64,000 nt of DNA, taken from the IMG/VR virus record IMGVR_UViG_3300042485_001470, positions 1 to 64,000 of that record. One strand, given 5' to 3'. This document shows positions 5,405 through 64,000 of this stretch, in pieces (positions within the stretch are counted from its first letter, which is position 1; every line of letters starts with the position of its first letter). This DNA comes from a virus. A program made the position numbers and the translations under genes. The notes under the pieces are model-generated. The model worked only from the letters and a program-made list of their open reading frames with translations, had not been told where the DNA came from and did not search any database.

Positions 5405-5787
5405 TGAGTAGAGTAGTTCCAAATATTAATATAGATACCACACAAAAGTTGAGGGATAGAGCCGGATTTAAAGAATTTGTATTAAGAGTTAATACAGATA
5501 CCTTTACATATTCACATAAACCAAATACTATTTCTTTGGAAAATCAAACATTTTTCACACTAACTTTAGAAAATAAAAGATTTATTTTTGATATATTAGA
5601 AGTTGATGATGTCACAGACTATGTTGATGTATATTTATTTGGAGTAAAACAACCACAAGATAGATATAATGTTGAAGTTGTTGGAAATAATATAATTGTT
5701 ACATTCACCGCTGATATTACAAGGTTACCAAATCAGGTATCGGCTGCAGATTTTGAAATAAAAGGTAAAATAGTAGAAATAGTATAA
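5404..5787 (+). CDS. Small protein with the same beta domain
   Basis: This 127-residue protein has an N-terminal segment with 'NTDTFTYSHKPNTISLEN' and a C-terminal part VDVYLFGVKQPQDRYNVEV...IIVTFT...FEIKGKIVEI. That C-terminal part is a third, more diverged copy of the domain at the ends of the two preceding genes. Both ends overlap neighbours by one base (TAATG), so it is translated as part of the neck block. A structural role is inferred from context only. Confidence 0.75.
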   Translation: MSRVVPNINIDTTQKLRDRAGFKEFVLRVNTDTFTYSHKPNTISLENQTFFTLTLENKRFIFDILEVDDVTDYVDVYLFGVKQPQDRYNVEVVGNNIIVTFTADITRLPNQVSAADFEIKGKIVEIV

Positions 5788-32687: not shown

Positions 32688-35600
32688 ATGGAATATTTGG
32701 GTAAAAGTCCTAATGGGTTAAATCAACTAAGTTCATCCTTAGTTGGTTTGTTTGTAAGTGGTAGTAATATAGCACAATTTTCATCAGCATCAGTAAATGT
32801 TGTTGGTAGTGTTACTGCTTCTGGAATACAAGCATACGAAATAGATTCTTTTGGAAACTTACCATTGGAAATAAAATCTAATACTCAAATAACTGGGTCT
32901 TTAGCTGTATCATCTTCAATAACCGCATCTTTATTTAGAGGTGATGGTGCCGGATTGTTTAATATATCAGCCACATCTATTGGTGATATTGATAAAATAA
33001 AATCAGGTTCAGCAACTGCAATAATTTCACCAAATAAAGGGTTGGTAGTAAATGTACCAACTTCAATTGATGGTGTATTGGCAGTAAACGGAAATTCAAA
33101 CATAACTGGTTCAGTTGTAATAAGCCAAAACTTAAATGTGGCTGGAAAAATTACAACAACTGAATTACATACAACATTTATATCATCTTCAGTAATATTC
33201 TCATCTGGTTCAAATAAATTTGGTGACAACGTTATTGATAGACAAGAAATAACTGGTTCTTTAAACGTAAGTGGTTCTATATTTGTAGGCGGAAATACAA
33301 TACCAACCGATAATACAACAAATGAGGTGTTGGTGTTGAATACTACAACTGGTAGAATTAGTAGAAGATTTGCAGCAGCAACTTCTGGTACATCAGGAAC
33401 TTCTGGCACATCAGGAACTTCTGGAACATCAGGAACTTCTGGAACATCAGGAACTTCTGGCACATCGGGAACTTCTGGAACAAGCGGAACTTCTGGTACA
33501 TCAGGAACTTCTGGTACATCAGGAACTTCTGGTACATCGGGAACTTCTGGTACATCGGGAACTTCTGGAACATCAGGAACTTCTGGTACAAGTGGAACAT
33601 CGGGTTCTTCTGGTACTCGTGGAACAAGCGGAACTTCTGGAACATCAGGAACTTCTGGCACATCGGGAACTTCTGGTACAAGTGGTACATCTGGTTCTAG
33701 TGGAACAAGCGGAGCTAGTGGTAGTAGTGGTAGTAGTGGAACATCTGGAACTTCTGGCACAAGCGGTACATCTGGAACTTCGGGTATAAGTGGTAGTAGT
33801 GGAACGAGTGGAAGTAGTGGAACAAGTGGTTCTTCTGGAAGTAGTGGAACGAGTGGAAGTAGTGGAACAAGTGGTTCATCGGGAACTTCTGGTATAAGTG
33901 GTACATCAGGAACTTCTGGTATAAGTGGTACATCAGGAACTTCTGGTACATCGGGAATAAGTGGAAGTGCTGGTACGTCTGGTACAAGTGGTATAAGTGG
34001 TACATCGGGAACTTCTGGTACATCAGGAACAAGTGGAACATCGGGAACTTCTGGATTAACTGGAGCCGGTGGTGGTACTGGAAGTTCTGGTTCAAGTGGT
34101 TCTTCTGGAACTTCAGGAACATCTGGAACAAGCGGAACATCAGGAACTTCTGGGACTAGTGGTATAGGTGGAGCAAGTGGTACTAGCGGAACATCAGGAA
34201 CTTCTGGGACTAGTGGTACATCGGGTATAAATGGAAGTAGTGGAACATCCGGTACACGTGGAACTTCTGGTACAAGCGGAGCTAGTGGAACTGGTGGTAC
34301 TTCTGGTACATCAGGAACTTCTGGGACTAGTGGTACATCTGGTACATCGGGTACTTCTGGTACTTCTGGTACTTCTGGTTCACGTGGAACTTCTGGAACA
34401 AGTGGAGCCAGCGGAAGTGCAGGTTCATCGGGAACTTCTGGAACAAGTGGCACATCCGGAACTTCGGGTATAAGTGGTTCATCGGGAACTTCTGGTACAT
34501 CAGGAACTTCTGGTACATCAGGAACTTCTGGTAGTCGTGGTACAAGCGGAACTTCTGGCACAAGTGGAGTAAGTGGAAGTGCCGGTACAAGTGGTACTTC
34601 TGGTACAAGCGGAACATCGGGAACATCTGGAACATCGGGAACTTCTGGAACATCTGGAACTTCTGGAACATCTGGAACTTCTGGAACATCGGGAACTTCT
34701 GGAACATCAGGAGTAAGTGGTTCATCAGGAACTTCTGGTACAAGTGGAACATCGGGAACTTCTGGAACAAGCGGTACGTCTGGAACATCAGGAACTTCTG
34801 GAACAAGTGGTGTAAGTGGTTCATCGGGAACTTCTGGTACATCGGGAACAAGCGGTACATCAGGAACAAGCGGTACATCAGGAACAAGAGGAACTTCTGG
34901 TACAAGCGGAACTTCTGGTACGAGCGGAACATCCGGTACATCAGGAACATCTGGAACAAGTGGTTCATCTGGAACGCGTGGGACTTCTGGAACTTCTGGA
35001 ACTTCTGGTACATCAGGAACTTCTGGAACAAGCGGAAGTAGTGGTTCATCTGGATTACTATCATTAACTGGTACAACTGATAATGGTGTAATCACATTAA
35101 ATGGAACTGCACCAAACGCAACTGTTGAAGCAAACTTAAAATTCGATGGTAGTACATTGACAGTAACGGGGGATGCTACAATTAGTGGTAACTTAACTGT
35201 AAGTGGTACAACAACTACAATTAATACCGAAACAATCCTATTAGCGGATAATATTATAACTCTTAACTCAAACTTCACATCTGGAGCACCAACTGAAAAT
35301 GCTGGTATCGAAGTTAGGAGAGGTTCATCTGCAACTGTACAATTTTATTGGGATGAAACCAATGATAGATGGTATGCAGATAATACATTACAGGTTGTAG
35401 GCAACGTAATCCTTAGTGGTACAATAGATACTGGACAGGGAGCAACGGAAGTTCATTTAATGAATCAGAATCTTCGTACAACTGATAACGTAACACATGC
35501 TACAATTACAGCAACAAATGGTGTAAGTGTAACTGGTGGAAACCTTTCAGTAAGTGCTGGTAATATAACTATAAGTGGTACAATAGATACTGGACAAGGT

Positions 35601-38600
35601 GCAACCGAAGTTCATTTAATGAACCAAAACGTTAGAACTTCTGATAACGTACAATTTGCAACAGTAAACGCATCTAATTTTAGAGATGGTAATGGTGCAT
35701 TCAACGTAAACTTAGGTAGTGGTGGTTCTGAAGGTAGAGGTTTAGTTGCTGGATATAGTGGTGGATGGTATGGTGGTATCGGGTATAACGTAAGACATAC
35801 AGGTACATCTGGTACTTTAATAGCACCATTAACCGATACGGCAACATATCTTAATTTTAGTCAAGGATTTACTTTCTATAATGACCAAACAACTACTGCT
35901 GGTAGAACTATTGGTTGGACTCAAATCGGTAGATTAGATAGTGCAGGTACATTTACAATTCCTGGTAACTTAGTTGCGGCACAGGTAAATACTGGACAAG
36001 GTTTAACTGAAGTTCATTTAATGAACCAAAATGTTAGAACAACTGATAGTGTAACATTTGCTAATATAAGTGCTGCTAATACAACTGTTAATAATTTAAT
36101 TTTACCACAAAATCCGGTAGGAACAACTTATGGAAATGGTGTATCAACAACACCACCATATATGATTTCCCAAACCGTTGGTGATAATGATGGTTGGCGA
36201 ATTTTTGGTGAAACATCTACAACAAATGCCGTAAGAATGGTATTTGAATTGATTGATGATATTGAAACTGCATTTACTGACCAATGGGCGTTTAGAAATA
36301 AATTAACATACGGTGGTTATACTGCAAGAAATGAATTCCAAATATCAGGAGATGGAGATGCATTAGCTCGTACATCGATGAGGGCTCCAATTTTTTATGA
36401 TAGTGATAATACTGGATATTATGGTAATTTTGCAGCAACATCCGAATTAAATGCCGCAAATCTATATGGAACTTGGGCTTGGAGAAATGGAGCACAACAA
36501 AACTTCTACACATCAGCTGGAAATTTAAGAGGATATATTCAGGCAACTGATACCGATGATGCACACTTCATTATAGCTACATCCGGTGGTGAAGATATAT
36601 CATTTAGAGATGGTGGACTGGCGGGATCTGTGAATATGGTAATTAGAGGAAATGGTACGGTTCAGGCATACGATGATTTCAGAGCACCAATATTCTATGA
36701 TTCGGCAGATACAACATATAGAATTGATGCAAATGGCACATCTGTTGTTGATATAATGGAATTTGGTGGTGATATATCAACTAACACTTCAAATGGTTCT
36801 AAAATGTTTGGTATGTTTATACCGGATGGTAAATATCAAACTCGTAATTGGCATGCTGGTGATGGTGGATATGTTTGGGGTGGAATGCAATATAGAACAG
36901 GATTATCGGATTCTCCAATTGGTTCATACGCACATAGCGGAAACTTTGCCGCTTGGGCAGGATGGAGACAAAACGGATGGGTGCCAATTGATAGAACAAA
37001 AACATATAAAGTTTCTGCTTGGATAAGAACAACATCTGGTAATCCATATTGCTATCTTTCATTTACGCAAGCTGGATTTGATTATTCTCAACCTGATAAT
37101 GGTGGTTGGGGACAACCTTATTATTGGAGTGGTGTGGCACCATCTTCTTGGACAGAATACACAATGACTATTGGACCTGCTGGGTCTGGAGCTCAATATA
37201 CTTGGTATTCATACGCAAGATTCATGCAGTTAGGCTTCCTACATAACTATTTGTATAGTGGATATAGTGGAAATGCGGAATTTGTAGGATTTAAAATTGA
37301 AGAAGTTGATAATACATTAGCTAATAATACTGTTGTATTAGGACCTATTTACGCAACTCAATTTATTGATAATAATGATGGTAGTTTCTTAGTTGACCCT
37401 AATGGTACTTCTAGACTTAGTGTTTTAACACTAACATCTACATTCAATTTACCAAACAACGCATTAGTATCAGTAAATAATGAGCCGGATACTTGGGGTG
37501 CTAGATTTAGAACAACAACATCTACATCAAACTTAGGTTCGGCACTTAAAAATATTATTTGGACAGGTGGGGGTAGTTCCGAAGGTTTTGCAGTTTCTGG
37601 AGTAGGAACTGGTGGATATGCATTAGAAGTAAGAAATGATGGTATAGCTTGGGCTAGGAGTTCATTTAGAGCACCTGAAATTTACGCTGACCGTTTTTAT
37701 GATGATGATGGAACATTTGCATTTAGATTTGCACCAAATACTGGTGTATCTAGAGCGATAAACTTGGCAAGTAGTACATCAGACCCATCAAGTGTTGGTT
37801 CAGCATCTGGTATCACATCTGGACAAAGAAGTGATGGACAACCATACTATATGCTTTATGTACCATCTGCTTATAACAATGGATATAGTACACATACTCG
37901 TTTAAGATTAAATTGGCATACTGGTGTTGAAATAGGAGCTGACCCATCGTATGGTGGTACTAGATTCTTTAACGGAAACTTACCAATTTACGGAAGTGAA
38001 ATAATGTCAATCGGTGCTGGTGATTCTAATATAAGAATTACAAACACTTTATTTGTTCCGTATATTGCAGATAGAGACAATACGGCATTCTATCTAAACC
38101 CTGCTGATACGGGAAATTCTATTAATATAGCAGGTTCATTACGAGCAGCTAATTATAATAAACCGGCTATTATGTCTGTGTCAAGCGGAACATCTTCAGC
38201 TGGGGCATCATTTGGAATTCAACAAGAAACGGCTGAAGGTTGGACAGGTATATTTGTAGATTATGAACCATATACTGGATGGGGATTCTACCATGATAAT
38301 CCAAACAACCTATTTTCGTTTACTTCTGAAGGTTCAACTGGGCAAATTCGTTCATTTACTGTACCATCGAGAGTAAGTGGTAATAGAACGGCTTATGAGA
38401 AACTTAGAATTGACCAAAATAATGGTGATATAATTGTTGGTAGAGATGGTTATGCACAATCATCATTTAGAGCACCAATATTCTATGATAGTAACAACAC
38501 AACATATTATATAGACCCTAATAGTAACTCTGTTATAAGAGGTAGATTGGATGTTCAGGCTGGACATGGTAATACAAATATAAGATTAACTGCAATAGGT

Positions 38601-41000
38601 GGGGAGATGGGTTCTGGTGTACAATCTACTATGCAGTGGTGGGTATCTGAACCGGGTGTAACTTGGAACGATGGTGGTTTTGGATATAACGTACAAAACG
38701 ATGGTGGTTCTCCTTCTGGATTTGGTAGATTGAATACGGGATTAGGACAGGCTTACATGAGATTCAGTACAGCTGGGCATTTATATTTTTATAACACAAA
38801 TACTTCTGGTACTAGATATTCTACTATGGATATGTATGCTAGTAATTACATATATGTTCATAACTATTTAGAAGCAGGTAGTTCATTAAGAGCACCAATA
38901 TTCTACGATAGTAATAATACTGGATTTTATACTGACCAAGCATCTACATCTCGATACAATGAGATAAGAGCTAACAAAATGCGTGCTGATACCAATGGTG
39001 CTATGAGTGATGACCAGGGTTGGTGGACGCATGACCCGTATGGATATGGGTGGGGTAAACCACATGGTTCATTCCGTACATTGGAGGTATCTACATCTGG
39101 TAATTTCAGTACTGAACCAATGTTGTTCCGTATGCACCAGTGGGGTTCTGGAGCAGCAGAATTCTGGAAACCACAAGGTCTTACTCTTTTCTTGAGAGAA
39201 ACTCCAATTGGTGGTAATATTAAGCACAGTAACTGGTTTACTCGTTTTTATGTACAAAGATACATTGAAACGGATGAATCAATGAGAGCGCCAATTTTCT
39301 ACGATAGTGATAATACTGGATATTATGTAGACCCTACCGGCGAAACAAACTGGCAAGGATTAACTTTATATGCAAAAAATAGAATTGGTTTAGCCGCTAA
39401 GGAGCAGTATAGAAGAAGTGATTACACTGGTGATACTAACCACTGGACTGGTGCTAGAGGATGGGGTACTACTTCATTCAATGACCAAATGAACTGGGGT
39501 TCTGGTTGGGGTGATTCTTGGGGTAGTATTGGACAATCTCCTGGCGATACTTCTCATTATTTAACGGCACAAGTATATCACTATTCTTATTCTGGAGTTG
39601 GATATGGGTGGCAATTAACTGGTGGTGTTACTGATTCATTGTGGTGGAGACATAGCTGGCCATCTAATAGCGGTTGGTTCAAAATCGCAATGTATGATAA
39701 TAATGCATCAGCGGGTGGTGCGTTATGGGCAGGTATATTTTATGATTCAAATGATAGTGGATATTATTTAGACCCAAATACTACATCAAATGCTGCATTA
39801 AGAATTAGAGGTGGTACATTACATGGACCTAACCCAAGTTGGGGAAAATATTTAGCAGTTGGTACAAACGGACATTGGACCGGTGGTTATGCTAGTGTTG
39901 CTGTAACCAATGGTAACCTTCACTTAGATTCTGAAGGTGGGTATGGTATGTACCTACAATGGTATGTTGGTGGTAGCACCTATGTAAATGGTGATATACG
40001 TGCAAACATATTCTATGATTTGCAAAACACCTCATATTATTGTGACCCTACTGGATATTCTCAATTTAGTAGTGGTGAGTTTAACAACTATATGAGAGCA
40101 GCTCGTATAGACTTCATTGGTACGGGTGGTAACTCTGGACAAGGTACAAATGCATACTCTATCTTCCAAGAAGGTGGTGGATGGGGTTATCCTTATCCGG
40201 ATTTAAGAATTGCATACCATACTGGTATCAAATTAGGAGCAAACGGACCTTCTTATGAAGGAACAAGAGTTTACACCGATTATGATATGAGTGATTTAGC
40301 AATCCAATTGTGTGGACCATCAAACTATTCATTTAAGTATAAATGGATGTGGACAAATGATACTGGATATTATTCTAGTGTAAATGGGGCACACTGGTAT
40401 CCAAATAACATCACCTATGGTGCTTGGAGAATGGATGGTAATCGAAATGGTTGGTATGGACACGTAATTGATTCGGCGTATTTACCTCACTATATGTGGG
40501 AGAGTGGTAATGGTGGAATATATTTACAAAATGCCGGAAGATGGGTATTATATCATTCATTGGGAAATAACTGTACCGGATTGGGTACATCAGCAACATC
40601 TGGCGCATACGGTATATATGTAGATAAAGGTGTTTACACTACTGGAAACGTTGTAGCTTACTCCGATAGACGTGCAAAAGAAAATATTGTAACTATTGAT
40701 GATGCATTAAGTAAATTAATGCAATTAAGAGGTGTTTATTACAATAGAATAAAAGATGAAGATAAAGTAAGACAATTGGGTGTAATTGCACAAGAAGTTA
40801 ATGAGATAGTTCCTGAAGTAGTAACTTATGCAGAAGATGTTGATGAATACGGAGTTGCTTATGGTAATTTAGCTGGATTATTTATAGAATCTATAAAAGA
40901 CCAACAAGCAATTATTGATAAACAATCTGAAGAAATAAATTTATTAAAAGATGAATTACAAAAAATTAAAGATTTAATATTTAATACTAATAAAGGATAA
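32688..41000 (+). CDS. Giant tail fibre (2770 aa) with S74 intramolecular chaperone domain
   Basis: Residues 1-230 are fibre modules, including one SGSATAIISP/GDGAGLFNIS unit like those of the 3759-residue fibre. Residues ~230-787 are Gly-Thr-Ser triplets. Residues ~800-1130 are beta repeats with DTGQGATEVHLMNQN. Residues ~1400-1550 resemble a carbohydrate-binding beta-sandwich (KTYKVSAWIRTTSG, WTEYTMTIGP, VGFKIEEVDN). About ten YDSxNTxYYxDPxxTS modules are spread over residues ~1225-2460. The C-terminus is a Peptidase_S74 domain: SDRRAKENI (Ser2659 as cleavage nucleophile), RGVYYNRI, LGVIAQEVNEIVPEVV, YGNLAGLFIESIKDQQ and a coiled-coil end. S74 domains trimerise the fibre and then cut themselves off before the conserved Ser. 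An in-frame alternative start is not available; an out-of-frame ATG lies 4 nt upstream. It is probably a main receptor-binding fibre. Confidence 0.88.
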   Translation: MEYLGKSPNGLNQLSSSLVGLFVSGSNIAQFSSASVNVVGSVTASGIQAYEIDSFGNLPLEIKSNTQITGSLAVSSSITASLFRGDGAGLFNISATSIGDIDKIKSGSATAIISPNKGLVVNVPTSIDGVLAVNGNSNITGSVVISQNLNVAGKITTTELHTTFISSSVIFSSGSNKFGDNVIDRQEITGSLNVSGSIFVGGNTIPTDNTTNEVLVLNTTTGRISRRFAAATSGTSGTSGTSGTSGTSGTSGTSGTSGTSGTSGTSGTSGTSGTSGTSGTSGTSGTSGTSGTSGTSGTSGTSGTSGSSGTRGTSGTSGTSGTSGTSGTSGTSGTSGSSGTSGASGSSGSSGTSGTSGTSGTSGTSGISGSSGTSGSSGTSGSSGSSGTSGSSGTSGSSGTSGISGTSGTSGISGTSGTSGTSGISGSAGTSGTSGISGTSGTSGTSGTSGTSGTSGLTGAGGGTGSSGSSGSSGTSGTSGTSGTSGTSGTSGIGGASGTSGTSGTSGTSGTSGINGSSGTSGTRGTSGTSGASGTGGTSGTSGTSGTSGTSGTSGTSGTSGTSGSRGTSGTSGASGSAGSSGTSGTSGTSGTSGISGSSGTSGTSGTSGTSGTSGSRGTSGTSGTSGVSGSAGTSGTSGTSGTSGTSGTSGTSGTSGTSGTSGTSGTSGTSGTSGVSGSSGTSGTSGTSGTSGTSGTSGTSGTSGTSGVSGSSGTSGTSGTSGTSGTSGTSGTRGTSGTSGTSGTSGTSGTSGTSGTSGSSGTRGTSGTSGTSGTSGTSGTSGSSGSSGLLSLTGTTDNGVITLNGTAPNATVEANLKFDGSTLTVTGDATISGNLTVSGTTTTINTETILLADNIITLNSNFTSGAPTENAGIEVRRGSSATVQFYWDETNDRWYADNTLQVVGNVILSGTIDTGQGATEVHLMNQNLRTTDNVTHATITATNGVSVTGGNLSVSAGNITISGTIDTGQGATEVHLMNQNVRTSDNVQFATVNASNFRDGNGAFNVNLGSGGSEGRGLVAGYSGGWYGGIGYNVRHTGTSGTLIAPLTDTATYLNFSQGFTFYNDQTTTAGRTIGWTQIGRLDSAGTFTIPGNLVAAQVNTGQGLTEVHLMNQNVRTTDSVTFANISAANTTVNNLILPQNPVGTTYGNGVSTTPPYMISQTVGDNDGWRIFGETSTTNAVRMVFELIDDIETAFTDQWAFRNKLTYGGYTARNEFQISGDGDALARTSMRAPIFYDSDNTGYYGNFAATSELNAANLYGTWAWRNGAQQNFYTSAGNLRGYIQATDTDDAHFIIATSGGEDISFRDGGLAGSVNMVIRGNGTVQAYDDFRAPIFYDSADTTYRIDANGTSVVDIMEFGGDISTNTSNGSKMFGMFIPDGKYQTRNWHAGDGGYVWGGMQYRTGLSDSPIGSYAHSGNFAAWAGWRQNGWVPIDRTKTYKVSAWIRTTSGNPYCYLSFTQAGFDYSQPDNGGWGQPYYWSGVAPSSWTEYTMTIGPAGSGAQYTWYSYARFMQLGFLHNYLYSGYSGNAEFVGFKIEEVDNTLANNTVVLGPIYATQFIDNNDGSFLVDPNGTSRLSVLTLTSTFNLPNNALVSVNNEPDTWGARFRTTTSTSNLGSALKNIIWTGGGSSEGFAVSGVGTGGYALEVRNDGIAWARSSFRAPEIYADRFYDDDGTFAFRFAPNTGVSRAINLASSTSDPSSVGSASGITSGQRSDGQPYYMLYVPSAYNNGYSTHTRLRLNWHTGVEIGADPSYGGTRFFNGNLPIYGSEIMSIGAGDSNIRITNTLFVPYIADRDNTAFYLNPADTGNSINIAGSLRAANYNKPAIMSVSSGTSSAGASFGIQQETAEGWTGIFVDYEPYTGWGFYHDNPNNLFSFTSEGSTGQIRSFTVPSRVSGNRTAYEKLRIDQNNGDIIVGRDGYAQSSFRAPIFYDSNNTTYYIDPNSNSVIRGRLDVQAGHGNTNIRLTAIGGEMGSGVQSTMQWWVSEPGVTWNDGGFGYNVQNDGGSPSGFGRLNTGLGQAYMRFSTAGHLYFYNTNTSGTRYSTMDMYASNYIYVHNYLEAGSSLRAPIFYDSNNTGFYTDQASTSRYNEIRANKMRADTNGAMSDDQGWWTHDPYGYGWGKPHGSFRTLEVSTSGNFSTEPMLFRMHQWGSGAAEFWKPQGLTLFLRETPIGGNIKHSNWFTRFYVQRYIETDESMRAPIFYDSDNTGYYVDPTGETNWQGLTLYAKNRIGLAAKEQYRRSDYTGDTNHWTGARGWGTTSFNDQMNWGSGWGDSWGSIGQSPGDTSHYLTAQVYHYSYSGVGYGWQLTGGVTDSLWWRHSWPSNSGWFKIAMYDNNASAGGALWAGIFYDSNDSGYYLDPNTTSNAALRIRGGTLHGPNPSWGKYLAVGTNGHWTGGYASVAVTNGNLHLDSEGGYGMYLQWYVGGSTYVNGDIRANIFYDLQNTSYYCDPTGYSQFSSGEFNNYMRAARIDFIGTGGNSGQGTNAYSIFQEGGGWGYPYPDLRIAYHTGIKLGANGPSYEGTRVYTDYDMSDLAIQLCGPSNYSFKYKWMWTNDTGYYSSVNGAHWYPNNITYGAWRMDGNRNGWYGHVIDSAYLPHYMWESGNGGIYLQNAGRWVLYHSLGNNCTGLGTSATSGAYGIYVDKGVYTTGNVVAYSDRRAKENIVTIDDALSKLMQLRGVYYNRIKDEDKVRQLGVIAQEVNEIVPEVVTYAEDVDEYGVAYGNLAGLFIESIKDQQAIIDKQSEEINLLKDELQKIKDLIFNTNKG
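33378..35055 (+). repeat. Gly-Thr-Ser triplet region of the S74 fibre
   Basis: About 560 codons of Gly-x-y triplets, mostly GTS and GSS, with occasional GIS, GRG, GAS and GVS, and one central break (LTGAGGGTG). It is more uniform than the tract in the other fibre and lacks the GLDGTFFG steps. Confidence 0.85.
36370..40080 (+). repeat. YDSxNTxYYxDP fibre modules (about 10)
   Basis: Recurrent units with RAPIFYDSxNTxYYxDPxxTS separate larger variable segments of 60-200 residues. The spacing and the RAPIFYDS core are well kept in at least six copies. Others (YADRFYDDDG, IADRDNTAFY) are diverged. Confidence 0.75.
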
Positions 41001-54170: not shown

Positions 54171-54542
54171 ATGTTAGATATTAACCGATATAAAAAAATA
54201 AATAGTCCTGATGTACTTTATGATAGTATAAAGATAAAAACTCATGTGGCAACACCAACCCAAACCGATTATAAAAGAGGGTATATTACAAGATATTTCA
54301 TACAAAAAGCAAATGATACCGAATCAGCTATATATGAAGTTGATTATATAGGGTTTAGTAAATTTATAGACAACCCATTTTATACACATGTAAATTTAAA
54401 TTGGAGAATAATTGGTACTGATGAACAAATAAAAGATTCAAATTTTAAAGCAATACGTTTATTAACTCCAAAAATACCAAAACTTCAACTATATCTTCCA
54501 AACTTATTGCAGTTTAAGCAAAAAAATGATTTGGAAGTTTAA
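54171..54542 (+). CDS. Small protein downstream of the hub gene
   Basis: This 123-residue protein has a YKKINSPDVLYDSIKIK start, then a basic RGYITRYFIQKAND strand, YEVDYIGFSKF and a middle NLNWRIIG strand, and a final LPNLLQFKQKND helix. It reads as mixed beta/alpha and is probably a virion or hub accessory protein. I do not recognise a family. It closes the tail transcription unit; its final codons overlap the TTTG box of the tmRNA promoter. Confidence 0.7.
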   Translation: MLDINRYKKINSPDVLYDSIKIKTHVATPTQTDYKRGYITRYFIQKANDTESAIYEVDYIGFSKFIDNPFYTHVNLNWRIIGTDEQIKDSNFKAIRLLTPKIPKLQLYLPNLLQFKQKNDLEV

Positions 54543-54561
54543 TTATTTTTTTGTATATTTG
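54530..54561 (+). promoter_or_regulatory. Bacteroidota-type promoter of the tmRNA
   Basis: TTTG at 54530-54533 and TATATTTG at 54554-54561 are separated by 20 nt, matching the Bacteroidota TTTG / TAnnTTTG pattern. The mature tmRNA start (54575) is 13 nt after the -7 box, so a short leader would be trimmed. Confidence 0.65.
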
Positions 54562-54574
54562 TATTTATCAATAT

Positions 54575-54960
54575 GGGGGTGACTCGGAATTGATTACAAT
54601 GAGAATTGTAGTATCACATGTAGTGGGATGGTTCTCCAACCACTTTAATCTCGGAATCAACAAATAAACGCAGAAGAATTATCTTCTTGGACCTTCGAAG
54701 ATGCTATGGCATTCGTAGGTGCTGATTACGCTGTAGCAGCCTAATCAAACTCGGGTCGGTGCACATATAACCTAGGAACAGAAGTGTTTACAAAGGCTTT
54801 ATTCGTTGAGCCCAAATCAATGAATTGGTGGAAACGCTGAACTAACCATTCGGCCCCAATTATTTTGGAAAGTGAATAAGATTAAACTTTATCCTAAACA
54901 TGTGAGACGTTGGTATTATGGTTACTTTGTAAGACATGGGTTCGAATCCCATCACCTCCA
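54575..54960 (+). ncRNA. ssrA: Phage-encoded transfer-messenger RNA
   Basis: The ends form a 7-bp acceptor stem: GGGGGTG at 54575-54581 with CACCTCC at 54953-54959, discriminator A at 54960, followed by CAA, so the CCA end is not encoded. The 5' part has the conserved GGAATTGA; the 3' part has AAACATGTGAGACGTTGG and a T-arm with GGGTTCGAATCCC, close to known tmRNAs. The tag frame starts at GCA 54670-54672, preceded by TAAAC, and runs 24 codons to TAA at 54742-54744. It begins AEELSS and ends GADYAVAA; most tags end LAA and have about 8-16 residues. tmRNA with SmpB frees stalled ribosomes and marks the peptide for proteolysis; the phage copy would rely on host SmpB. It lies between tail and replication genes, so it is a true phage gene rather than an attachment-site scar. 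Confidence 0.93.
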
Positions 54961-54964
54961 CAAC

Positions 54965-55002
54965 AATCCCGAACTATTATTTGGTAGTTTGGGATTTTTT
55001 TT
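54965..55002 (+). terminator. Rho-independent terminator of the tmRNA
   Basis: A 12-bp stem (54965-54976 with 54985-54996, one G-U pair), an 8-nt loop and eight T at 54995-55002. It lies 4 nt after the tmRNA end. Confidence 0.88.
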
Positions 55003-55016: not shown

Positions 55017-56297
55017 ATGAAAATTGTTGAGTCTATTGGCGAATTGAACGAATTGAAAGTTTTGTTGGAAACCGAAGTATCCATTTGGTATCCAATATGG
55101 GTAGATAATGATAAGCACCCACAAAACACTCATATATCGTTCGTATTCGTTAGAACCTTATCGGACAAGTACATACTACCACAACAACATACAGACGCTG
55201 TATCGCTATCTAATGAACAAATAGAAAGTGTGTTGAATACTGCCGGTGAAAAATGGGTTTTCCAAAAGAAAAAGCTACTACAATCTTTTACAAATGTAAG
55301 GGAAGGCTTGAATGATGTTGATACCGCTCACTTCTTAAAGACCGGTGAACCAATAGATTACTCTCAACCACTACAACACTTAGTAGCTCCCCTTTTACAT
55401 AGGGGTTACAAAGAAGACATCATTCAATCTATTCCCATTCTTAAACTTGCGGAAGCAATAGAACCACAATTACTAAAACATACAAATCAAAAGAGTAAAA
55501 CTTATAATTGGTATAACGATATATTCTTACCTACCCTTTCAGATATTGAACGATTTGGGATTCGGGTCGATGGAAAAAAATTTATTGATAGATGGCCTCA
55601 AGCCTATAAGCAATTAAAAGGAGATTGTGTGTTTACGGAATACAATCCATTTACGGTGACAGGTAGACCATCCAATAGACATGGTGGTGTGAATTATGCC
55701 GCCCTCAATAAAACCGATGGTAGTAGAGATGTGTTCGTTTCCGATGGGATATTTCTACAAATGGATTATAACGCATATCACCCCCGTCTAATCGCTAAGT
55801 TGGTTAAGTTCGATGCGCCGGATGGTAATATGCACCAATGGTTAGCCGAACAATATGGTTGTAGTGTGGATGAATCGAAGGGAATTACGTTCCAATTACT
55901 TTATGGTGGTATCGATGATGAGTTCCGCCAAATCCCATACTTTGATAAAGTGGCTGATTATATAGATGAGTTGTGGATTGAAACACAAAGAAGGGGATAC
56001 TTACAAACACCACATAGAGAGATACCCCTAAGTTGGATAGAACAACCAAATGCTCAAAAAGTATTTAACTATCTACTACAAGCGGTAGAAACTGAAATGA
56101 ATATTGATAAGATGATGAAGATATTAGAATGTATTAAGGGAAGTGGTATTGAGTTTTCCCTATACACATACGATTCATTTCTTTTTGATGTTCCTGTTGA
56201 TGTTGATAAAGGGCTTATTAAGAAATTGAAAGAAATAATCGAAGAAGGGGGGTTTCCTATCAAAGCTAGTTGGGGAAAAACTTACGGAAAACTCTAA
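55017..56297 (+). CDS. Compact family A DNA polymerase-like protein
   Basis: The protein has 426 residues. TGRPSNR near residue 215 corresponds to the DNA-binding T-G-R-x-S-x motif of family A polymerases. QMDYNAYHPRLIA holds motif A (Asp250). SKGITFQLLYGG holds motif B with Lys288, Phe292 and Tyr296 spaced exactly as K758/F762/Y766 of E. coli Pol I. YTYDSFLFDVP holds motif C with Asp386, but the usual His-Asp-Glu is Tyr-Asp-Ser. No exonuclease motifs are recognised in the first ~170 residues. The frame is open upstream into the tmRNA, but ATG 55017 is the only plausible ATG start. T4 itself uses a family B polymerase, so this could be replicative or a repair enzyme. The next gene starts 39 nt downstream after a promoter-like element. 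Confidence 0.8.
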   Translation: MKIVESIGELNELKVLLETEVSIWYPIWVDNDKHPQNTHISFVFVRTLSDKYILPQQHTDAVSLSNEQIESVLNTAGEKWVFQKKKLLQSFTNVREGLNDVDTAHFLKTGEPIDYSQPLQHLVAPLLHRGYKEDIIQSIPILKLAEAIEPQLLKHTNQKSKTYNWYNDIFLPTLSDIERFGIRVDGKKFIDRWPQAYKQLKGDCVFTEYNPFTVTGRPSNRHGGVNYAALNKTDGSRDVFVSDGIFLQMDYNAYHPRLIAKLVKFDAPDGNMHQWLAEQYGCSVDESKGITFQLLYGGIDDEFRQIPYFDKVADYIDELWIETQRRGYLQTPHREIPLSWIEQPNAQKVFNYLLQAVETEMNIDKMMKILECIKGSGIEFSLYTYDSFLFDVPVDVDKGLIKKLKEIIEEGGFPIKASWGKTYGKL

Positions 56298-56336: not shown

Positions 56337-56939
56337 ATGAAAAAAATCAGTACCCTTATCGGTTTCCTACTTGTTTCTTTAATTTCGTTTGGGCAAGATG
56401 TTAGAATTAAAAACGAAGTATTTGAAGTTCTTTATTCACAATCATTAGAACAACCTTTAGTAATTAAATATCGTTCAACTAATAGACCTACAAATGTGAA
56501 CAGAGGTACTATGGATTTTTACAAAGAACCAAACATTAAAACATCAGATGCGGAAGATTACGCTAAAAATATATACGATAAAGGACATGGTGCACCAGCT
56601 GCAACATTCTCTGATAATATGGTAAACCTAAAACAAACATTCTCATACTTAAATTGTATAATGCAAGACCAATACCTTAATAGAGGTGAGTGGAGATTGT
56701 TAGAAGAACAAATCCGTAAATGGGATGATACTGAAAATATAACTGTACTAATAAAAACATTCTTTGATACTCCAGTAAAAAGAGTGGCAACTGGAGCAGC
56801 AATTCCATCTTACTTACAAAAACACATCTATTTTGAAACACAAAAGAAATGGAGATGTTATGTATTTCTAAATCAAAAACCAAAATTTCATTGGGATGAA
56901 TTAGAAATGATATGCGAAGCTGAAGACCACAAATTTTAA
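56337..56939 (+). CDS. Secreted DNA/RNA non-specific endonuclease
   Basis: The protein has 200 residues. Residues 1-20 form a Sec-type signal peptide: MKKIS, a hydrophobic core, then ISFGQ, with cleavage likely before or at Gln as common in Bacteroidota. Asp81-Lys82-Gly83-His84 (DKGHGAP) corresponds to the D-R-G-H motif of the NucA/Serratia nuclease family with His84 as general base. Asn115 in YLNRGEWRLLEE matches the metal-binding Asn followed by W-x-x-L-E. The usual N-terminal regions are short, so it is a compact version. The enzyme would degrade nucleic acid in the periplasm or outside the cell. It starts after a late promoter-like element, and its stop codon overlaps the start of the giant polyvalent gene (TAATG). 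The Arg of DRGH is Lys here. Confidence 0.82.
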   Translation: MKKISTLIGFLLVSLISFGQDVRIKNEVFEVLYSQSLEQPLVIKYRSTNRPTNVNRGTMDFYKEPNIKTSDAEDYAKNIYDKGHGAPAATFSDNMVNLKQTFSYLNCIMQDQYLNRGEWRLLEEQIRKWDDTENITVLIKTFFDTPVKRVATGAAIPSYLQKHIYFETQKKWRCYVFLNQKPKFHWDELEMICEAEDHKF

Positions 56940-59900
56940 TGAATATGAATTTATCTGAATTAATAAACGAAATACTATCCGAATGGGCATATAGAGTTGA
57001 AAATGGTATGCCTGACCCAAAGAACCCAACCCATTTAAAGGAGTTGGGTATTGTACTTTCTGAAATGGGATTATCTCATATCAAAGATACATTGGTTGAA
57101 AACCTTTTGGTGGAAACGGGAAAAACTCCACAAAAAGTTGTTGAAGCTGAAAAGGGTAACTTTACAAATCCTGCTCTTAATAAATCTATTAAGTATAAAA
57201 ATGATAAAGGTGAAGATAAGGAAGGATTGGTTGGTAACCTGTTAAGATTACCAAAAGAGCATCCTGGTAGAAAAGCAGCGGAAGCAACATTACCTGCCGA
57301 TGGTACGCCGGAAAGAGATTCTATTAATAAAGATTTGGGTGGGGAAGGTCAACCTAAAAAGCCTGAAGATGGAAAGGGCAAAGAAGGTGGAGAATCAGGT
57401 GGTGGAGAAGATGAAAAAATGAAACAAGCGGCGGCAATGTTTGACCCAAAAGTAGACCCAGCTATGGCTGCTAGAATGAATAAAGAAAAAGAAGTTCAAG
57501 CTCAATTAGCAAAAGATGCTGAAGCACAAAACGAACCACCCCCAACTCCAAAAAACCAAACAACAAACAAACAATTAGCAAAAGCAGCTGGATTTGATAA
57601 TGTTGGTAGTTGGTATAATGACCTTAATAAGAAAGCAATGTCTGATGATCCTGAAGTGGCATCAAAGGCGGAAAAAGATTTAGATACATACGAAAAAAAT
57701 AAAGTAAAAGATGCTCAATCAACTGATGATTTTAATCCAATAGATAGTAAGGATGTAGCAAAAGAAATGCCACAAGCTGACCCAGAAACATTTGGAGGAG
57801 ATAGTGATATACCGGATGGTATAGAACCTGAACAATTGCAAAAATTCAATACTGATATTAGTAAAGTAGCACAGCAAGTAGCTGATGCAAAGGCTAAAGG
57901 AGAACCAGCACCAAACATTAACTTATGTGATGTGACTGTTCCTGGTACTAACTTATATTGTGATGATAATTTGGGTATTCCAAGAGACCAAATGCCACAA
58001 TTCAAAGGTACTGCTCAACCTGGTAGTAGAGCAGCTGGAATGGATGTGGATGCAAGTGGTGAGGTAGACACTGAACCTGTATTCAAAGAAATGTTAAAAG
58101 AGAAAGGTATTAAGACATTACAAACGGAAATACCTGCTGATAAATTAAAAGCAACTCAGCAAGATTTAGTTGGTGCAAAAGTAGTTGGTATGATGGGTGT
58201 TTTAAAAGACCCAAATCACCCAGCTTTTGAAAAAATTACCGCACCAATATATGTGAGTAGGGATGGTCACGTAATTGATGGACATCACCGTTGGGCGGCA
58301 ATCGTAGCTCATAATGCAGCAAATCCAGACAATCAAATACCAATGAAAACAACGGTATTGGATATGGATATTAAAGATGCAATTCCAATGGCGAATAAGT
58401 TTGCAGAAGATATGGGTATTGCGGCTAAGAAAGCAGATGCAAATAAAGAAGCACCAACCGAACAACCATCAGAACCAGCAAAAAGAGAACCTGCCAATAA
58501 TGATCCTGAATCTAAAGCACAGCAATTTAAAGGAAAATCATCTGGTGAAAATATCCAAACAATGGAAATGGAAGGTGGTGGATTCGTATATGGAACGAAG
58601 CACGGAAACACCGCAATGGTTGATGATATATTAGATGATGTTAAATCTAAAATACCAAAAGAAAGATGGAAGGATGTTGTATTCGTAGGTGAGGGAGGTG
58701 CAACTGGTGATAGTGGTGAAGTGGAATTTAACGATGAAATGGATTACGCAGCTCCAAAGTTCAAAGAAATGGGTGCTGGTGTGGATACATGGGATGGTGA
58801 TGATATGGATGTACATAATGACCAATCTAAATTATACCAAAAGCAAAAAGAAAAAACTGGATTTAACGATTCTCAAGTTAAAGCTGGTAACTGGGCTAGT
58901 ATGATTGGGCAGGGAGAAGGTACTGATACAATGTCACCAAACGATTATTTAGATGATGAAGGTAAACAATTCTTAAGTGATGCTGCAAAAGAGGCTGGAT
59001 TCCCACCAATAGAAAATTGGAATGAACCAACCGAACAGGATAAAGATACTCTTTATAGATTATCATTCCCAGAAGATAATGGTGATAAACCAACAAAGAT
59101 AAATGATATTCAAGTTGCATTTAATGATGCAAGAGATGAAAATTTAATTGAAAAGAATAAAGAACTAACTGCACAGGGTAAAATACCTATTACGATTGCA
59201 GGTGAGAGTCATGTTGACTTAGTCGATAAAATGACAAGAAAACAAAAAGGAGCATCAAGCGAAAAATTACCTGAACCAGAAGCCCCATCAGAAGAAGATG
59301 GTGGTGTTGTATATAGTGTGGGTGGTGGATATTATTCGGATAAGCCTGATGGGCCTGCACAATATGTGGCAACTGAAAATGTAATTCAAAAAGTATTAAT
59401 TGAAGGTGATATTAATTTTTCTTATTTATTGTTTGAAGCAGCAGTAACTAAAAAAACTTCTAAAGGTAAGGTTGTAAAATTAAGAACAATCAAACCAAAA
59501 GACCAAAATAAAGCAACTGCAGCAGCTGCGGCAGCAAAACCACAGCCACCTGCTAAAATTGTACCACCGGGAGTAAAACAAAAACCACCGGTTATCGCAC
59601 CACCAGAGGTAAAACCAAAATCACAAGCACCTGCTAAAATTGTACCTCCTGGTGTAAAACCAAAGGCATCAGTTCCACCTCCACCACCGCCTCCACCGCC
59701 GCCACTTCCTAAGAAGAAAGCAGGAGCTGTGCCACCTCCACCGCCACCTCCGCCACCAACGGTGAAGAAAGCAGGAGCTGTGCCACCGCCACCGCCACCA
59801 CTTCCTACGAAAAAAGCAGGAGCTGTGCCGCCTCCACCGCCACCTCCGCCACCAACGGCGAAGAAAGCAGGAGCTGTACCACCTCCACCGCCACCTCCTC

Positions 59901-62900
59901 CGCCGCCACTTCCTAAGAAGAAAGCAGGAGCTGTACCTCCTCCACCGCCACCTCCGCCACCTCCACCGCTTCCTAAAAAAGCAGGAGATAAAAGTGGTTG
60001 GGATGGATATGAAGAACCTGAATGGATAAAAAATGCTCCAAAAGGTTGGGATGATGATGCGGTTAAAAATAAGAGTGCTTGGGGTGATGAACCAATGCAA
60101 GAACCTGATTGGATGAAAGGTGGTTCTTCGTGGGATAAAAAGCCAATGCCTAAAGGTGAAACTCCACCTCCTGGTACTAAAAAAGCTGGAGCAATTCCAC
60201 CACCGCCTCCACCGCCTCCACCGGGAGCTAAGAGTGCAAATAATAACGAAAATATACCACCAACCGATAAACAAGCAAATGAACAAATAGCTCAAGAAAG
60301 AAAAGGTTTAACTCATGAGGAAAATCAAGTTTATGAATTCTTAGAAGGAATGCCTGAAGAGCAAAGGGCAGAGGCAATTCAAAAAGCATTGGATGATAGA
60401 AGTTTGTTGCAAAAAGGATTGCAAGATACAATGGTAGGCGGTTGGTTTAAGAAGAAAGGGAAAATGTTGTCTAATGTATATGATGGAATAAAGCAATGGT
60501 ATAAAACAGGTAAAGTTGGTACTACTAAAGATTGTAGTGGTGCACCAGCTGGACCTCATGCAAATAAGAATGAAAATATAAAAGAAGATTCACAAAATAG
60601 ACAAGACTATTTAGCATCTTTAGATAAGACGGGTAAAAAGAAAAAGAAAGCTGATGATAGTGATTGTATGGATGTGCATGTTGAGGACTATCAAAAAAGA
60701 GATAAAGATGGTAACTTAATGTACAAAAAAGAACCTGTATATGAAAGTGGAGAAAAACCAGACCCAAAAAACTTTGGACCAGATGGTGCATATTTCGGTG
60801 GGTTGGGAACTGGATACATAGGTCCTAGAAAAACTGGAACTGAATATGGTAATGCTTCTAAAGAAGATGCATTTAAAGCAAGTGAATTAGATTCTAAAAC
60901 AGGATACTTTAAGAGAGATGGAAAATACTATGGTGTAGATGGTGAGGAAGTAAATGCGAAAGGACAAAAATTAGATGCAGAGGGTAATACAACACAAAAG
61001 ACAGAAAGATGTTTCTTTTGTTTTCCTCCGGGAAAAAAGGTCCCAGTTACGCAAAAAGTTGCTGATTTGGAAGATGGTTTAACCGCTGAACAAAAACATG
61101 CAGCTCATCATTCGGAACATGCTCAACATGAAAGAAAGCATGCGATGTGGCATTTAGGAATAGAAGCTTCATTGATAGTTGGTGGTGCATTAGCTGGCCC
61201 TATGATATTAGCTAAGATGGGAGTCGGTGGAGCAGCTGCTGGAGCTGGTTCGCATGGTGTAGCACAAGCAACTTCACAAGCCGCAACAGCCGCAGCTGAA
61301 CATCACGGAGCATCTGCATTTGCAGCACACGTTTTAAAAGATTTTGGAAAGCATGCATTAGCAGAAACATTAGGAGTAACGAACCCTTATGCAGCAGCAG
61401 GGAGTGGGTTGGCAGCAAGTGCAGTTACTGGTGGTGTATTAGAATCATTTTGGAAAGATGTAGAAAAGTATAATTTATTATCGGAAGATATTGATGGAGA
61501 AATGGATGAGAATAAAGGTAAAGATTTCTTAGAAAAAATTATGGTATTGATGATGGAGAAAATGAAAACTTACAAAATGACTCCTCAGCAAAAGTTGGAA
61601 AGTATAAGAAAGTATAAATTTGAAAAAGCTGAAAACGAAAAGAAAAAACAAAAACAAGATAAATTAAAAGATTTGGCTAATTTACTAAAAGAAAAAACAG
61701 CAAAGTCAAAACAAAATTCTATAAATCATTTTGTTGAATTTGCAGCTAAACGATTAAATTTAAAAGAAACTCCAAAAATTAATTTAATGAGTGGAAATGA
61801 ATTTAAAAATGAATTGGCAGCTTTGGGTGGGTATGACCCTTCTTCAAAAGAAATATTTGTTGCAACCGAAGGAAGATTGACAGCTGATATTTTAAGAACT
61901 ATTGCACATGAAATGGTACATAGAAAGCAAGAAGAAAAAGGATTCCTTAAGAACATTGATAAAGATGGTTCAGCTGGGTCTAAAATAGAAAATCAAGCCA
62001 ATTCAATTGCTGGAATTTTGATGAGAGAATATGGTAAGATAAACAAACAAATCTATAACGAAAATACAAAAAAACAATTAGAATTAGTAAGTAATTTATT
62101 ATTAGAGAAGGTTAATCGTTTTATTGATGAGGCTAAACCAAAGAAAGATGATCCTGATGTAAAATATATAGATGGAAAAGGAAAAGAACATACAATCAAA
62201 TTTTCATCAGCAATTAAGTATGATGAAAAACATCCTGCTTATATAGCAGCTATGAAATTAAAAGATACTGGAGATAACTCAAATGATACCCAAACTGTTC
62301 AAGGTGCAGGATTGTTTGATGACCCAGAATATCAAAAAAGAATGGGAGCTGAAGTACCACCAACACAAACAACACCAACTGATTCAGAAGAAAATCCGGA
62401 AGGATTGTATGACCCTAATGATAAATTACAATCGGCAGTTGTTGATGCAAAAAATCCAAAAGAATTATTTTCCGCATTAGATGAATTAGGTAAAGATGAG
62501 GAAGATATAATGTTGGATAAGGTTAAAGCTGGGGCAGGTGGTCCTGTTGCATCAACTGGTGAAACTCTTTGTACTGAAGCTCAAACTAATATGATACAAG
62601 GTAGATATAATCCGAAGGAAGTTAGGAGTTCTACGGAATATAAAGCCGAATTGGCAAGTGTTAGAAATGTAATGAGTGGTACTGATAAGAGAGCAAAAAC
62701 TGCTCTTACTAAGGAATTGGATAATATTTGTGACAAAATGGGGTATTATAAAGAAGATGGTAACCCTGATTATGAATTAGCAATGGCTATGAAAGCCGAA
62801 GCAGATTTGTATATTAAACAAAATTTACCAGCTTTCAAAAAAACAAATGTAGCAAAAACTAAATTTAAAAAAGAAGAAGATATGGTAAGTTGGATGAAAG

Positions 62901-64000
62901 CATCATTCTATTCATCATATTCTTTAATAAATAATGGACCTGCTGATTGGGATAGAAAAAAGGGTAATGGTAGAGTAATGAAAGCTAATCCAAGAACACA
63001 AGGAGCTACAAAGCAAGTTTTATTAGATGGTTTAAAAAACGCAAAAACTCCTGAAGAAAAGGCTCATTATGAAAATCAATTAAAAGTTTGGAGTAAATTT
63101 AAAGGTTATCACGATACGTTTTTGGTTTACAAAAATGATAAAGGATTGGTTTCAGTATTTCATATATCAAATAAAAAAAGTGATGAGTTAGATGACCCTC
63201 AAAATAATACAACTCCTGAAACTAGACTTGCTAACTATATGGCAGCAGCTAGAGAAGCTAATTTAAGTCCTAAAGCAGCTAAAGCGGTAGCTAACGCACA
63301 ATCAGTAGCTATGGCAGGTTCTGCTGATAATGATAATATTGCAAAGGGTGCTTGGAATGAAGTAGAAGATGTAAACTTAATAACATCATTAGCCGGTAGA
63401 TTACCTGCTAGAGGTCAAACTGATGTTAAAGATGAATATTATACTGATTTGAAAGGTGATAAATTAGTTAAAGATTGGTATAAAAAGAAATATGGTAAAG
63501 ATAAGTGGGAAGCAAAATGGAAGGCAGCAAAACCAAATGAAGTAATTGGAGTAGTGATGCAAATTGCAGAAGCACAAGATGATATTTCAAAACTATCAGG
63601 AAACTTTACTAAATTTATGTTAAAGCAAGGTCAATTAGCACAAAGTGTATTTGCAAAAGCTCAATCTGGTATGAATGCAAAACAAATTTCTCAAAGCTTT
63701 AACGGAATATATTCACCAAAAGAAATACAAGCTATTCTTGATAGTGAAACAATGAAAATGTTAGCTGATAAAAAAGCACAACATGCTGCTGGTTTAGAAG
63801 GTGTACATAAAGGATTTATTACATCACTACATAAAGCAGATGGTACAAAGCCTGGTCATAGTGGTAAAAACGGACCTGCTGTTGAAACCTACGTTGCTGG
63901 TACGTTAAAAGCATTACATATTGATACCTACGTTACTAACTTTGATGAAAATATTGAGATTGAAATGGGTGGAGTTGGATGTAAACCTATTGATGTTAGG
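56939..64000 (+). CDS. Giant polyvalent-type protein, partial (at least 2354 aa)
   Basis: The frame is open from ATG 56939 (or 56945) to the end of the window without a stop. In order: a helical start; Lys/Glu/Gly-rich linkers; a ParB-like domain at residues ~375-480 with RDGHVIDGHHRW (Asp447, His449, Arg451); GTKH at 552-555, VGEGG (Glu585) and GESH at 755-758, resembling TraB/EreA-type G-x-x-H motifs; polyproline blocks at ~913-1013 and ~1087-1095; a CFFC pair (Cys1358, Cys1361); a His-rich run (~1382-1410) next to an Ala/Gly hydrophobic segment; and a metalloprotease-like HEMVH (1657-1661) with Glu1684 in KIENQAN as third ligand candidate. The remainder is helical and unrecognised. This mixture is typical of 'polyvalent' proteins injected with phage or plasmid DNA. 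It is coupled to the endonuclease gene by a 1-nt overlap. Enzymatic calls are from motifs only. Confidence 0.8.
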   Translation, partial: MNMNLSELINEILSEWAYRVENGMPDPKNPTHLKELGIVLSEMGLSHIKDTLVENLLVETGKTPQKVVEAEKGNFTNPALNKSIKYKNDKGEDKEGLVGNLLRLPKEHPGRKAAEATLPADGTPERDSINKDLGGEGQPKKPEDGKGKEGGESGGGEDEKMKQAAAMFDPKVDPAMAARMNKEKEVQAQLAKDAEAQNEPPPTPKNQTTNKQLAKAAGFDNVGSWYNDLNKKAMSDDPEVASKAEKDLDTYEKNKVKDAQSTDDFNPIDSKDVAKEMPQADPETFGGDSDIPDGIEPEQLQKFNTDISKVAQQVADAKAKGEPAPNINLCDVTVPGTNLYCDDNLGIPRDQMPQFKGTAQPGSRAAGMDVDASGEVDTEPVFKEMLKEKGIKTLQTEIPADKLKATQQDLVGAKVVGMMGVLKDPNHPAFEKITAPIYVSRDGHVIDGHHRWAAIVAHNAANPDNQIPMKTTVLDMDIKDAIPMANKFAEDMGIAAKKADANKEAPTEQPSEPAKREPANNDPESKAQQFKGKSSGENIQTMEMEGGGFVYGTKHGNTAMVDDILDDVKSKIPKERWKDVVFVGEGGATGDSGEVEFNDEMDYAAPKFKEMGAGVDTWDGDDMDVHNDQSKLYQKQKEKTGFNDSQVKAGNWASMIGQGEGTDTMSPNDYLDDEGKQFLSDAAKEAGFPPIENWNEPTEQDKDTLYRLSFPEDNGDKPTKINDIQVAFNDARDENLIEKNKELTAQGKIPITIAGESHVDLVDKMTRKQKGASSEKLPEPEAPSEEDGGVVYSVGGGYYSDKPDGPAQYVATENVIQKVLIEGDINFSYLLFEAAVTKKTSKGKVVKLRTIKPKDQNKATAAAAAAKPQPPAKIVPPGVKQKPPVIAPPEVKPKSQAPAKIVPPGVKPKASVPPPPPPPPPPLPKKKAGAVPPPPPPPPPTVKKAGAVPPPPPPLPTKKAGAVPPPPPPPPPTAKKAGAVPPPPPPPPPPLPKKKAGAVPPPPPPPPPPPLPKKAGDKSGWDGYEEPEWIKNAPKGWDDDAVKNKSAWGDEPMQEPDWMKGGSSWDKKPMPKGETPPPGTKKAGAIPPPPPPPPPGAKSANNNENIPPTDKQANEQIAQERKGLTHEENQVYEFLEGMPEEQRAEAIQKALDDRSLLQKGLQDTMVGGWFKKKGKMLSNVYDGIKQWYKTGKVGTTKDCSGAPAGPHANKNENIKEDSQNRQDYLASLDKTGKKKKKADDSDCMDVHVEDYQKRDKDGNLMYKKEPVYESGEKPDPKNFGPDGAYFGGLGTGYIGPRKTGTEYGNASKEDAFKASELDSKTGYFKRDGKYYGVDGEEVNAKGQKLDAEGNTTQKTERCFFCFPPGKKVPVTQKVADLEDGLTAEQKHAAHHSEHAQHERKHAMWHLGIEASLIVGGALAGPMILAKMGVGGAAAGAGSHGVAQATSQAATAAAEHHGASAFAAHVLKDFGKHALAETLGVTNPYAAAGSGLAASAVTGGVLESFWKDVEKYNLLSEDIDGEMDENKGKDFLEKIMVLMMEKMKTYKMTPQQKLESIRKYKFEKAENEKKKQKQDKLKDLANLLKEKTAKSKQNSINHFVEFAAKRLNLKETPKINLMSGNEFKNELAALGGYDPSSKEIFVATEGRLTADILRTIAHEMVHRKQEEKGFLKNIDKDGSAGSKIENQANSIAGILMREYGKINKQIYNENTKKQLELVSNLLLEKVNRFIDEAKPKKDDPDVKYIDGKGKEHTIKFSSAIKYDEKHPAYIAAMKLKDTGDNSNDTQTVQGAGLFDDPEYQKRMGAEVPPTQTTPTDSEENPEGLYDPNDKLQSAVVDAKNPKELFSALDELGKDEEDIMLDKVKAGAGGPVASTGETLCTEAQTNMIQGRYNPKEVRSSTEYKAELASVRNVMSGTDKRAKTALTKELDNICDKMGYYKEDGNPDYELAMAMKAEADLYIKQNLPAFKKTNVAKTKFKKEEDMVSWMKASFYSSYSLINNGPADWDRKKGNGRVMKANPRTQGATKQVLLDGLKNAKTPEEKAHYENQLKVWSKFKGYHDTFLVYKNDKGLVSVFHISNKKSDELDDPQNNTTPETRLANYMAAAREANLSPKAAKAVANAQSVAMAGSADNDNIAKGAWNEVEDVNLITSLAGRLPARGQTDVKDEYYTDLKGDKLVKDWYKKKYGKDKWEAKWKAAKPNEVIGVVMQIAEAQDDISKLSGNFTKFMLKQGQLAQSVFAKAQSGMNAKQISQSFNGIYSPKEIQAILDSETMKMLADKKAQHAAGLEGVHKGFITSLHKADGTKPGHSGKNGPAVETYVAGTLKALHIDTYVTNFDENIEIEMGGVGCKPIDVR
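59675..59980 (+). repeat. Polyproline / KKAGAV repeats
   Basis: Six blocks of 6-11 prolines alternate with (L)PKKKAGAV or PTVKKAGAV linkers inside the giant partial gene. The composition resembles formin FH1 or ActA-type proline repeats. A seventh block follows at about 60197-60223. Confidence 0.85.

Follow-up and report, generated by a model that had tools for sequence, protein, structure and literature searches.

The window analysed here, positions 1 to 64,000 of the 95-kb IMG/VR record IMGVR_UViG_3300042485_001470, encodes a tmRNA with a 24-codon tag frame, in which a phage-specific extension conserved as peptide precedes a C-terminal end of conventional type. We consider it reasonably probable that this is a working phage tmRNA, that its tag places a conserved module, which may be helical, ahead of an ordinary C-degron, and that the module is a docking site. 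Directly established are the gene, its tag frame, the conservation of the peptide, the phage-only clade and the alanine identity, together with the absence of SmpB and of ClpP or ClpX-type proteins from the records searched.

The tmRNA gene and its tag frame

ARAGORN reported a single tmRNA in the window, at 54575-54961 (+ strand, from the mature 5' end to the discriminator and the first C), with the tag AEELSSWTFEDAMAFVGADYAVAA, and the same gene gave the only Rfam match within the 64-kb window, covering all 374 positions of the RF00023 covariance model at 86.8 bits (E 2.8e-32), where the curated cut-off is 47 bits. An earlier note, made from the letters of this DNA, had proposed a tmRNA at 54575-54960; both programs bear out the call, and its coordinates are correct within one base. 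The acceptor pairing, T-arm and GCA resume codon that it described are all present (sequence, Rfam). The 5' strand of the 7-bp acceptor stem (GGGGGTG, 54575..54581) faces the 3' strand CACCTCC, which is followed by the discriminator A (54953..54960); G3 (54577) pairs with U70 (54957), the alanine identity, and the T-arm (ATGGG-TTCGAAT-CCCAT) lies at 54936..54952. CCA is not encoded, and the regions of the pseudoknots PK1-PK4 have low posterior probability in the Rfam alignment.

The tag reading frame (54670..54741, +), whose proposed 24 codons agree with the ARAGORN parse, opens with the resume codon GCA (54670-54672) directly after AAATAAAC, a context with TA at -5/-4 in a pattern common to the relatives, and runs through a small/hydrophobic, Ala-rich end to the stop codon TAA (54742..54744). 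By comparison it falls into a conserved extension, AEELSSWTFEDAMAFV (54670..54717), which is missing from cellular Bacteroidota tags, and a conventional degron-like C-terminal part, GADYAVAA (54718..54741; tag table of PMC12493166). The YAVAA ending had been taken as unusual, which was wrong, since the cellular tags tabulated in PMC12493166 include AKNTNSYAVAA of S. mutans and GKSNNNFAVAA of S. aureus.

Gene neighbourhood and probable host

As the earlier note had placed it, the tmRNA lies between tail genes (sheath, baseplate cluster) and a polymerase gene. Upstream on the same strand are P0002 (51890..54169) and the immediate neighbour P0003 (54171..54542, 123 aa), two tail-cluster proteins with no named family that are syntenic in relatives; downstream is a family A-like DNA polymerase (phrog_17; 55017..56297, +). 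The phage is contractile-tailed, encoding tail sheath, baseplate-like and head-tail proteins. A DNA/RNA non-specific endonuclease (PF01223) follows the polymerase at 56337-56939, and giant ORFs occupy 5787-18341 (4184 aa), 19359-30638 (3759 aa), 32688-41000 (2770 aa) and 56939-64000 (over 2354 aa), the last with long proline runs.

The gene had also been credited with its own promoter and terminator. The terminator stands, as a strong intrinsic stem-loop followed by a T run (54965..54996, +). A sigma-70 promoter is not supported, scan hits being no more frequent than in shuffles; a Bacteroidota-type promoter is nevertheless likely, judging from the consensus match of a promoter-like element, TTTGG-N-TATATTTG (54530..54561, +), and from similar elements upstream of 69 of the 121 related phage tmRNAs described below. 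The note's view of the tmRNA as a gene maintained by the phage is thereby supported. In the 5' flanks, a boxA-like leader (GTTCTTT/GCTCTTT) lies no more than 30 nt from the tmRNA in 26/121 phage genes and in 31/108 cellular ones from Bacteroidota.

The host of the window phage is likely to belong to the Bacteroidota. Flavobacterium phage immuto is among the nearest annotated relatives of both polymerase and sheath, Rhodothermus phage RM378 is a further match of the sheath, and the hosts of both phages are Bacteroidota-related; in cellular genomes a related polymerase was found on one contig, in a Flammeovirgaceae MAG, and a long-tag phage contig (L278) carries a Por_Secre_tail sorting-domain protein near its tmRNA. 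For sheath and polymerase alike, other matches lie in Microcystis phage Mel-JY01 and in an uncultured 484-kb phage. The cultured phage immuto itself gave no tmRNA match.

The long tag in related phages

Relatives were gathered in IMG/VR with neighbouring proteins as queries and then by DNA-pattern searches, which yielded 124 distinct phage tmRNA sequences in all. An automatic parse found a long frame in 121, which form the denominator of our counts; the three outside it are L264 and L295, with a long frame seen by eye, and L121, with a short tag. At most neighbour-protein loci that cover the spot a tmRNA is present there, with a long tag. The relatives' tags measure 23-26 residues and share a single plan, an extension of about 14-16 residues (ELST[WM]TFEDAMAF...; consensus [LMI]S[ST][WMF][TNS][FY][ED]D[ALVM]M[AS][FW]) followed by a conventional end such as DYAVAA, commonly of the form [DE]YA[VLIMY]AA, with a minority ending in ATFA, LAIA or LEMAA. 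From the core to the stop, 76 different DNA sequences encode 49 different peptides. A few parsed tags of other lengths are errors of the automatic parse. Tags of ~11 residues that ARAGORN gave for some relatives (e.g. VNKPEHYLSAP) were rejected as misreadings, the long frame lying upstream in the same RNA. The acceptor stem is fully paired in 119/121 relatives, G3-U70 is kept in 120/121 and the discriminator A in 121/121, as expected of RNAs that are still alanine-charged.

Many long-tag tmRNAs occur in gene neighbourhoods that do not contain the polymerase, so the extended tag is distributed over several phage groups. It is not essential, given that one relative (G002) has the ordinary short tag GVNNYALAA and another (L041), whose polymerase is 85% identical, has lost the tmRNA and has an unrelated small ORF at its place, so that some phages can do without the gene. 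This replacing ORF (L041 5573-5963) is ParB-like by eye, its flanking genes being unchanged.

In the loci retrieved, the tag motif was confined to tmRNAs and occurred in none of the remaining phage proteins. The tag peptide was found neither in the PDB nor, by tblastn with a 24-residue query that is perhaps insensitive, in the annotated phage collection, and a nucleotide search of annotated phages returned short T-arm matches only.

Contrast with cellular Bacteroidota tmRNAs

Our cellular sample held 168 Bacteroidota genomes, 161 of them with a tmRNA. The 108 tags read comprise 54 of 9 residues, 52 of 10 and two of 14, one or both of the last two being misreadings; examples are GENNYALAA, DNNYSYRLAA and ANDYSYAMAA. 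The 24-residue window tag thus falls outside the cellular short-tag type (9-10 residues in 106/108), and its unusual length, claimed earlier, is real in this comparison, at 2.4-2.7 times that of cellular Bacteroidota tags. The extension pattern was found in 0/396 Bacteroidota genomes, and a stricter version of it nowhere in the GTDB contig collection.

A tree built without the tag codons, from 65 long-tag phage representatives, the short-tag G002 and 88 cellular Bacteroidota tmRNAs, has a branch with support 98 that places the phage tmRNAs on one side and the 88 cellular ones on the other. G002 falls among the early phage branches, so that its short tag may be a loss or the ancestral state. 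On this tree the window tmRNA is a member of a phage-only lineage, and recent capture from hosts does not look like the origin of the phage tmRNAs. We take the lineage to be peculiar to myophages that most likely infect Bacteroidota.

Conservation of the peptide

Over the 12-codon core (57 distinct cores, some of their loci retrieved by tag pattern), pN was 0.17 and pS 0.55, a pN/pS of 0.31, with 2.05 and 2.32 in the shifted frames, values that are to be read with the caveat that peptides of related phages are not independent and that the shifted-frame control partly reflects codon structure. The subset retrieved through neighbouring proteins alone, and therefore without tag-pattern bias (45 distinct tmRNAs, 20 distinct cores), gave 0.43 for the tag frame, against 1.64 and 0.95 for the shifted ones. 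The length of the tags varies by whole codons, and the core positions S, M, D and T-F are invariant or nearly so across the 57 distinct cores.

Could the conserved stretch instead be an RNA element, acting through structure or spacing in the tmRNA, with its coding appearance secondary? The window sequence allows a hairpin to be drawn between the TFE and FVG codons, but its middle pairs are broken in most of 63 distinct tag sequences. RNAalifold detects next to no shared fold among these 63 (-1.4 kcal/mol), and only in the tag frame are most substitutions synonymous. We disfavour this explanation and hold it to be very improbable. Taken together, the in-frame pN/pS, the whole-codon length changes and the near-absence of an RNA fold make conservation at the peptide level the best reading of the extension.

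The same data bear on whether this is an ordinary phage tmRNA whose tag is a plain C-degron, lengthened in a tolerated way that carries no function of its own. The rescue mechanism does not fix tag length, the tags of Chlamydia (22 residues; PMC12493166) and Mesoplasma (PMC8138137) are also long, and G002 manages without the extension. Such passive lengthening would nonetheless sit poorly with the low pN/pS, with the invariant or near-invariant S, M, D and T-F over 57 distinct cores, and with the retention of the extension in several unrelated gene neighbourhoods, and we judge it quite unlikely. Because the extension is nearly unchanged in over a hundred related phages, it probably does something virus-specific.

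Predicted helix, degron end and possible partners

AlphaFold, run in single-sequence mode on the tag preceded by six in-frame residues, which favours helices, predicts a helix, FEDAMAFVGADYA, from F15 to A27 behind T14, with pLDDT 87 over residues 11-20 and the last three residues, VAA, outside the helix. The motif [WMF]-[TNS]-[FY]-[ED]-D-[ALVM] would fit a helix N-cap. An amphipathic character of the helix was considered and rejected, the hydrophobic moment not exceeding that of shuffles.

At the other end of the tag, the retained [DE]YA[VLIMY]AA argues that most of these tags would still be readable by ClpX-type unfoldases. This matters for a further possibility, raised in the earlier note, that the extension re-routes tagged proteins to another protease such as Lon or shields them from ClpXP. 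Long tags are known where the protease differs, as in M. florum, whose ssrA tag (different in length and sequence) is read by Lon (PMC8138137), and the ATFA, LAIA or LEMAA endings of some relatives would be compatible with re-routing; most relatives, however, keep the end type of ClpX-read cellular tags, and no phage protease was found in the records searched. We regard re-routing as unlikely.

No SmpB was found in 13 phage records and no ClpP or ClpX-type (ClpB_D2-type) protein in 9, some of these records being 188-274 kb long, and the RNA therefore presumably relies on host factors; most of the records may be fragments, so that these absences are not proof. No docking partner for the extension emerged as a candidate. 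A family of ~105-aa proteins ending in a EEYELCAEIKKIL-like helix directly adjoins the long-tag tmRNA, on its upstream side, at about 15 loci (e.g. L288, L333, L306, L274, L342) in several different phage neighbourhoods; it has no Pfam or PHROG name and is possibly a partner or a late-gene neighbour.

Proposed role

In the mechanism that we infer, in which expression, host range, trans-translation activity and docking are all read from sequence, the tmRNA would be expressed from its own promoter, receive its alanine through the host enzyme and bind host SmpB, the searched phage records encoding none, and would rescue ribosomes stalled during infection. Rescued chains would receive alanine and a tag of 23-26 residues. 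This tag would be bipartite, an ordinary C-terminal degron, [DE]YA[VLIMY]AA, standing behind the phage-specific, peptide-conserved extension, which may fold as a capped helix and offer a docking surface to a host or phage factor, so delivering, redirecting or delaying proteolysis of the tagged chains. More specifically, and as a tentative suggestion, the extension could be a phage-specific sorting signal, the private tmRNA marking every chain that it rescues in the infected cell with a helical peptide recognised by a phage or host adaptor. If so, the virus would control the fate of rescued proteins apart from the host's own short tag.

A phage-only tmRNA lineage that has retained a specific peptide ahead of the degron makes the question of why phages carry tmRNAs testable, by asking what binds or reads this peptide. 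Should a partner exist, these phages would be rewriting the tag of ribosome rescue to suit themselves, and the extension would provide a new portable degron or docking tag.

Comparison with known systems

The window tmRNA resembles the standard one-piece tmRNA (RF00023) in size, tRNA-like domain, G3-U70, TA at -5/-4, a stop-ended tag ORF and an AA end; it differs in its lower model score, 87 bits where the listed tmRNAs of cellular Bacteroidota reach roughly 114-200, and in a tag more than twice as long. The commonest tag length given by the 2025 tmRNA database paper is 10 (PMC11915505). Cellular Bacteroidota tags end in the same style (e.g. YALAA) but have 9-10 residues and no extension.

Phage tmRNAs are known from the mycobacteriophage Bxz1 group, Bacillus phage G, the OM43 phage Melnitz and huge phages (PMC4131195, PMC9004378, PMC7162821). 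These are likewise complete genes on large phages, with a role that is not proven, and we came across no description of a conserved extension in their tags; the Melnitz tmRNA is of the two-piece alphaproteobacterial type, unlike the one-piece tmRNA of the window. Nor is such an extension mentioned in the literature searched, which consisted mostly of papers available without subscription, and an earlier description is possible.

Other unusual tmRNAs were met on the way. The 484-kb uncultured phage has a tmRNA, misread by ARAGORN, with the 36-aa frame GVNNADYESAGFTAEDFAQMDGESLYHGSERKPAAV (L441 1501-1947; LR756508.1 92434-92880), and a sibling long tag, GNNANYEAAGFTAEDFATMDGESLYHGERELVRA, occurs on an 86-kb viral contig (L447, around 5360-5480). 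The two represent a second kind of long phage tag; neither ends in AA, and their middle is conserved. Similarity between the window tag and these 34-36-residue tags was not significant. The same 484-kb phage has a 112-nt tmRNA with no tag domain (L443 1501-1612; LR756508.1 414804-414915; 58 bits to RF00023), which resembles the TLD-only tmRNA of mycobacteriophage DS6A, an inhibitor of host tmRNA (PMC4131195, PMC11915505). Such TLD-only decoys lack a tag frame, whereas that of the window tmRNA is complete.

Of similar length are two natural cellular tags, the 22-residue tag of Chlamydia trachomatis (AEPKAECEIISFADLEDLRVAA; PMC12493166) and the long tag of Mesoplasma florum, a cell that lacks ClpXP and in which Lon reads the tag (PMC8138137). 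Both are unrelated to the window tag in sequence, and the Lon-directed Mesoplasma type has length alone in common with it. These two tags already show that length alone is not new; what appears to be new in the phage tag is its conserved extension.
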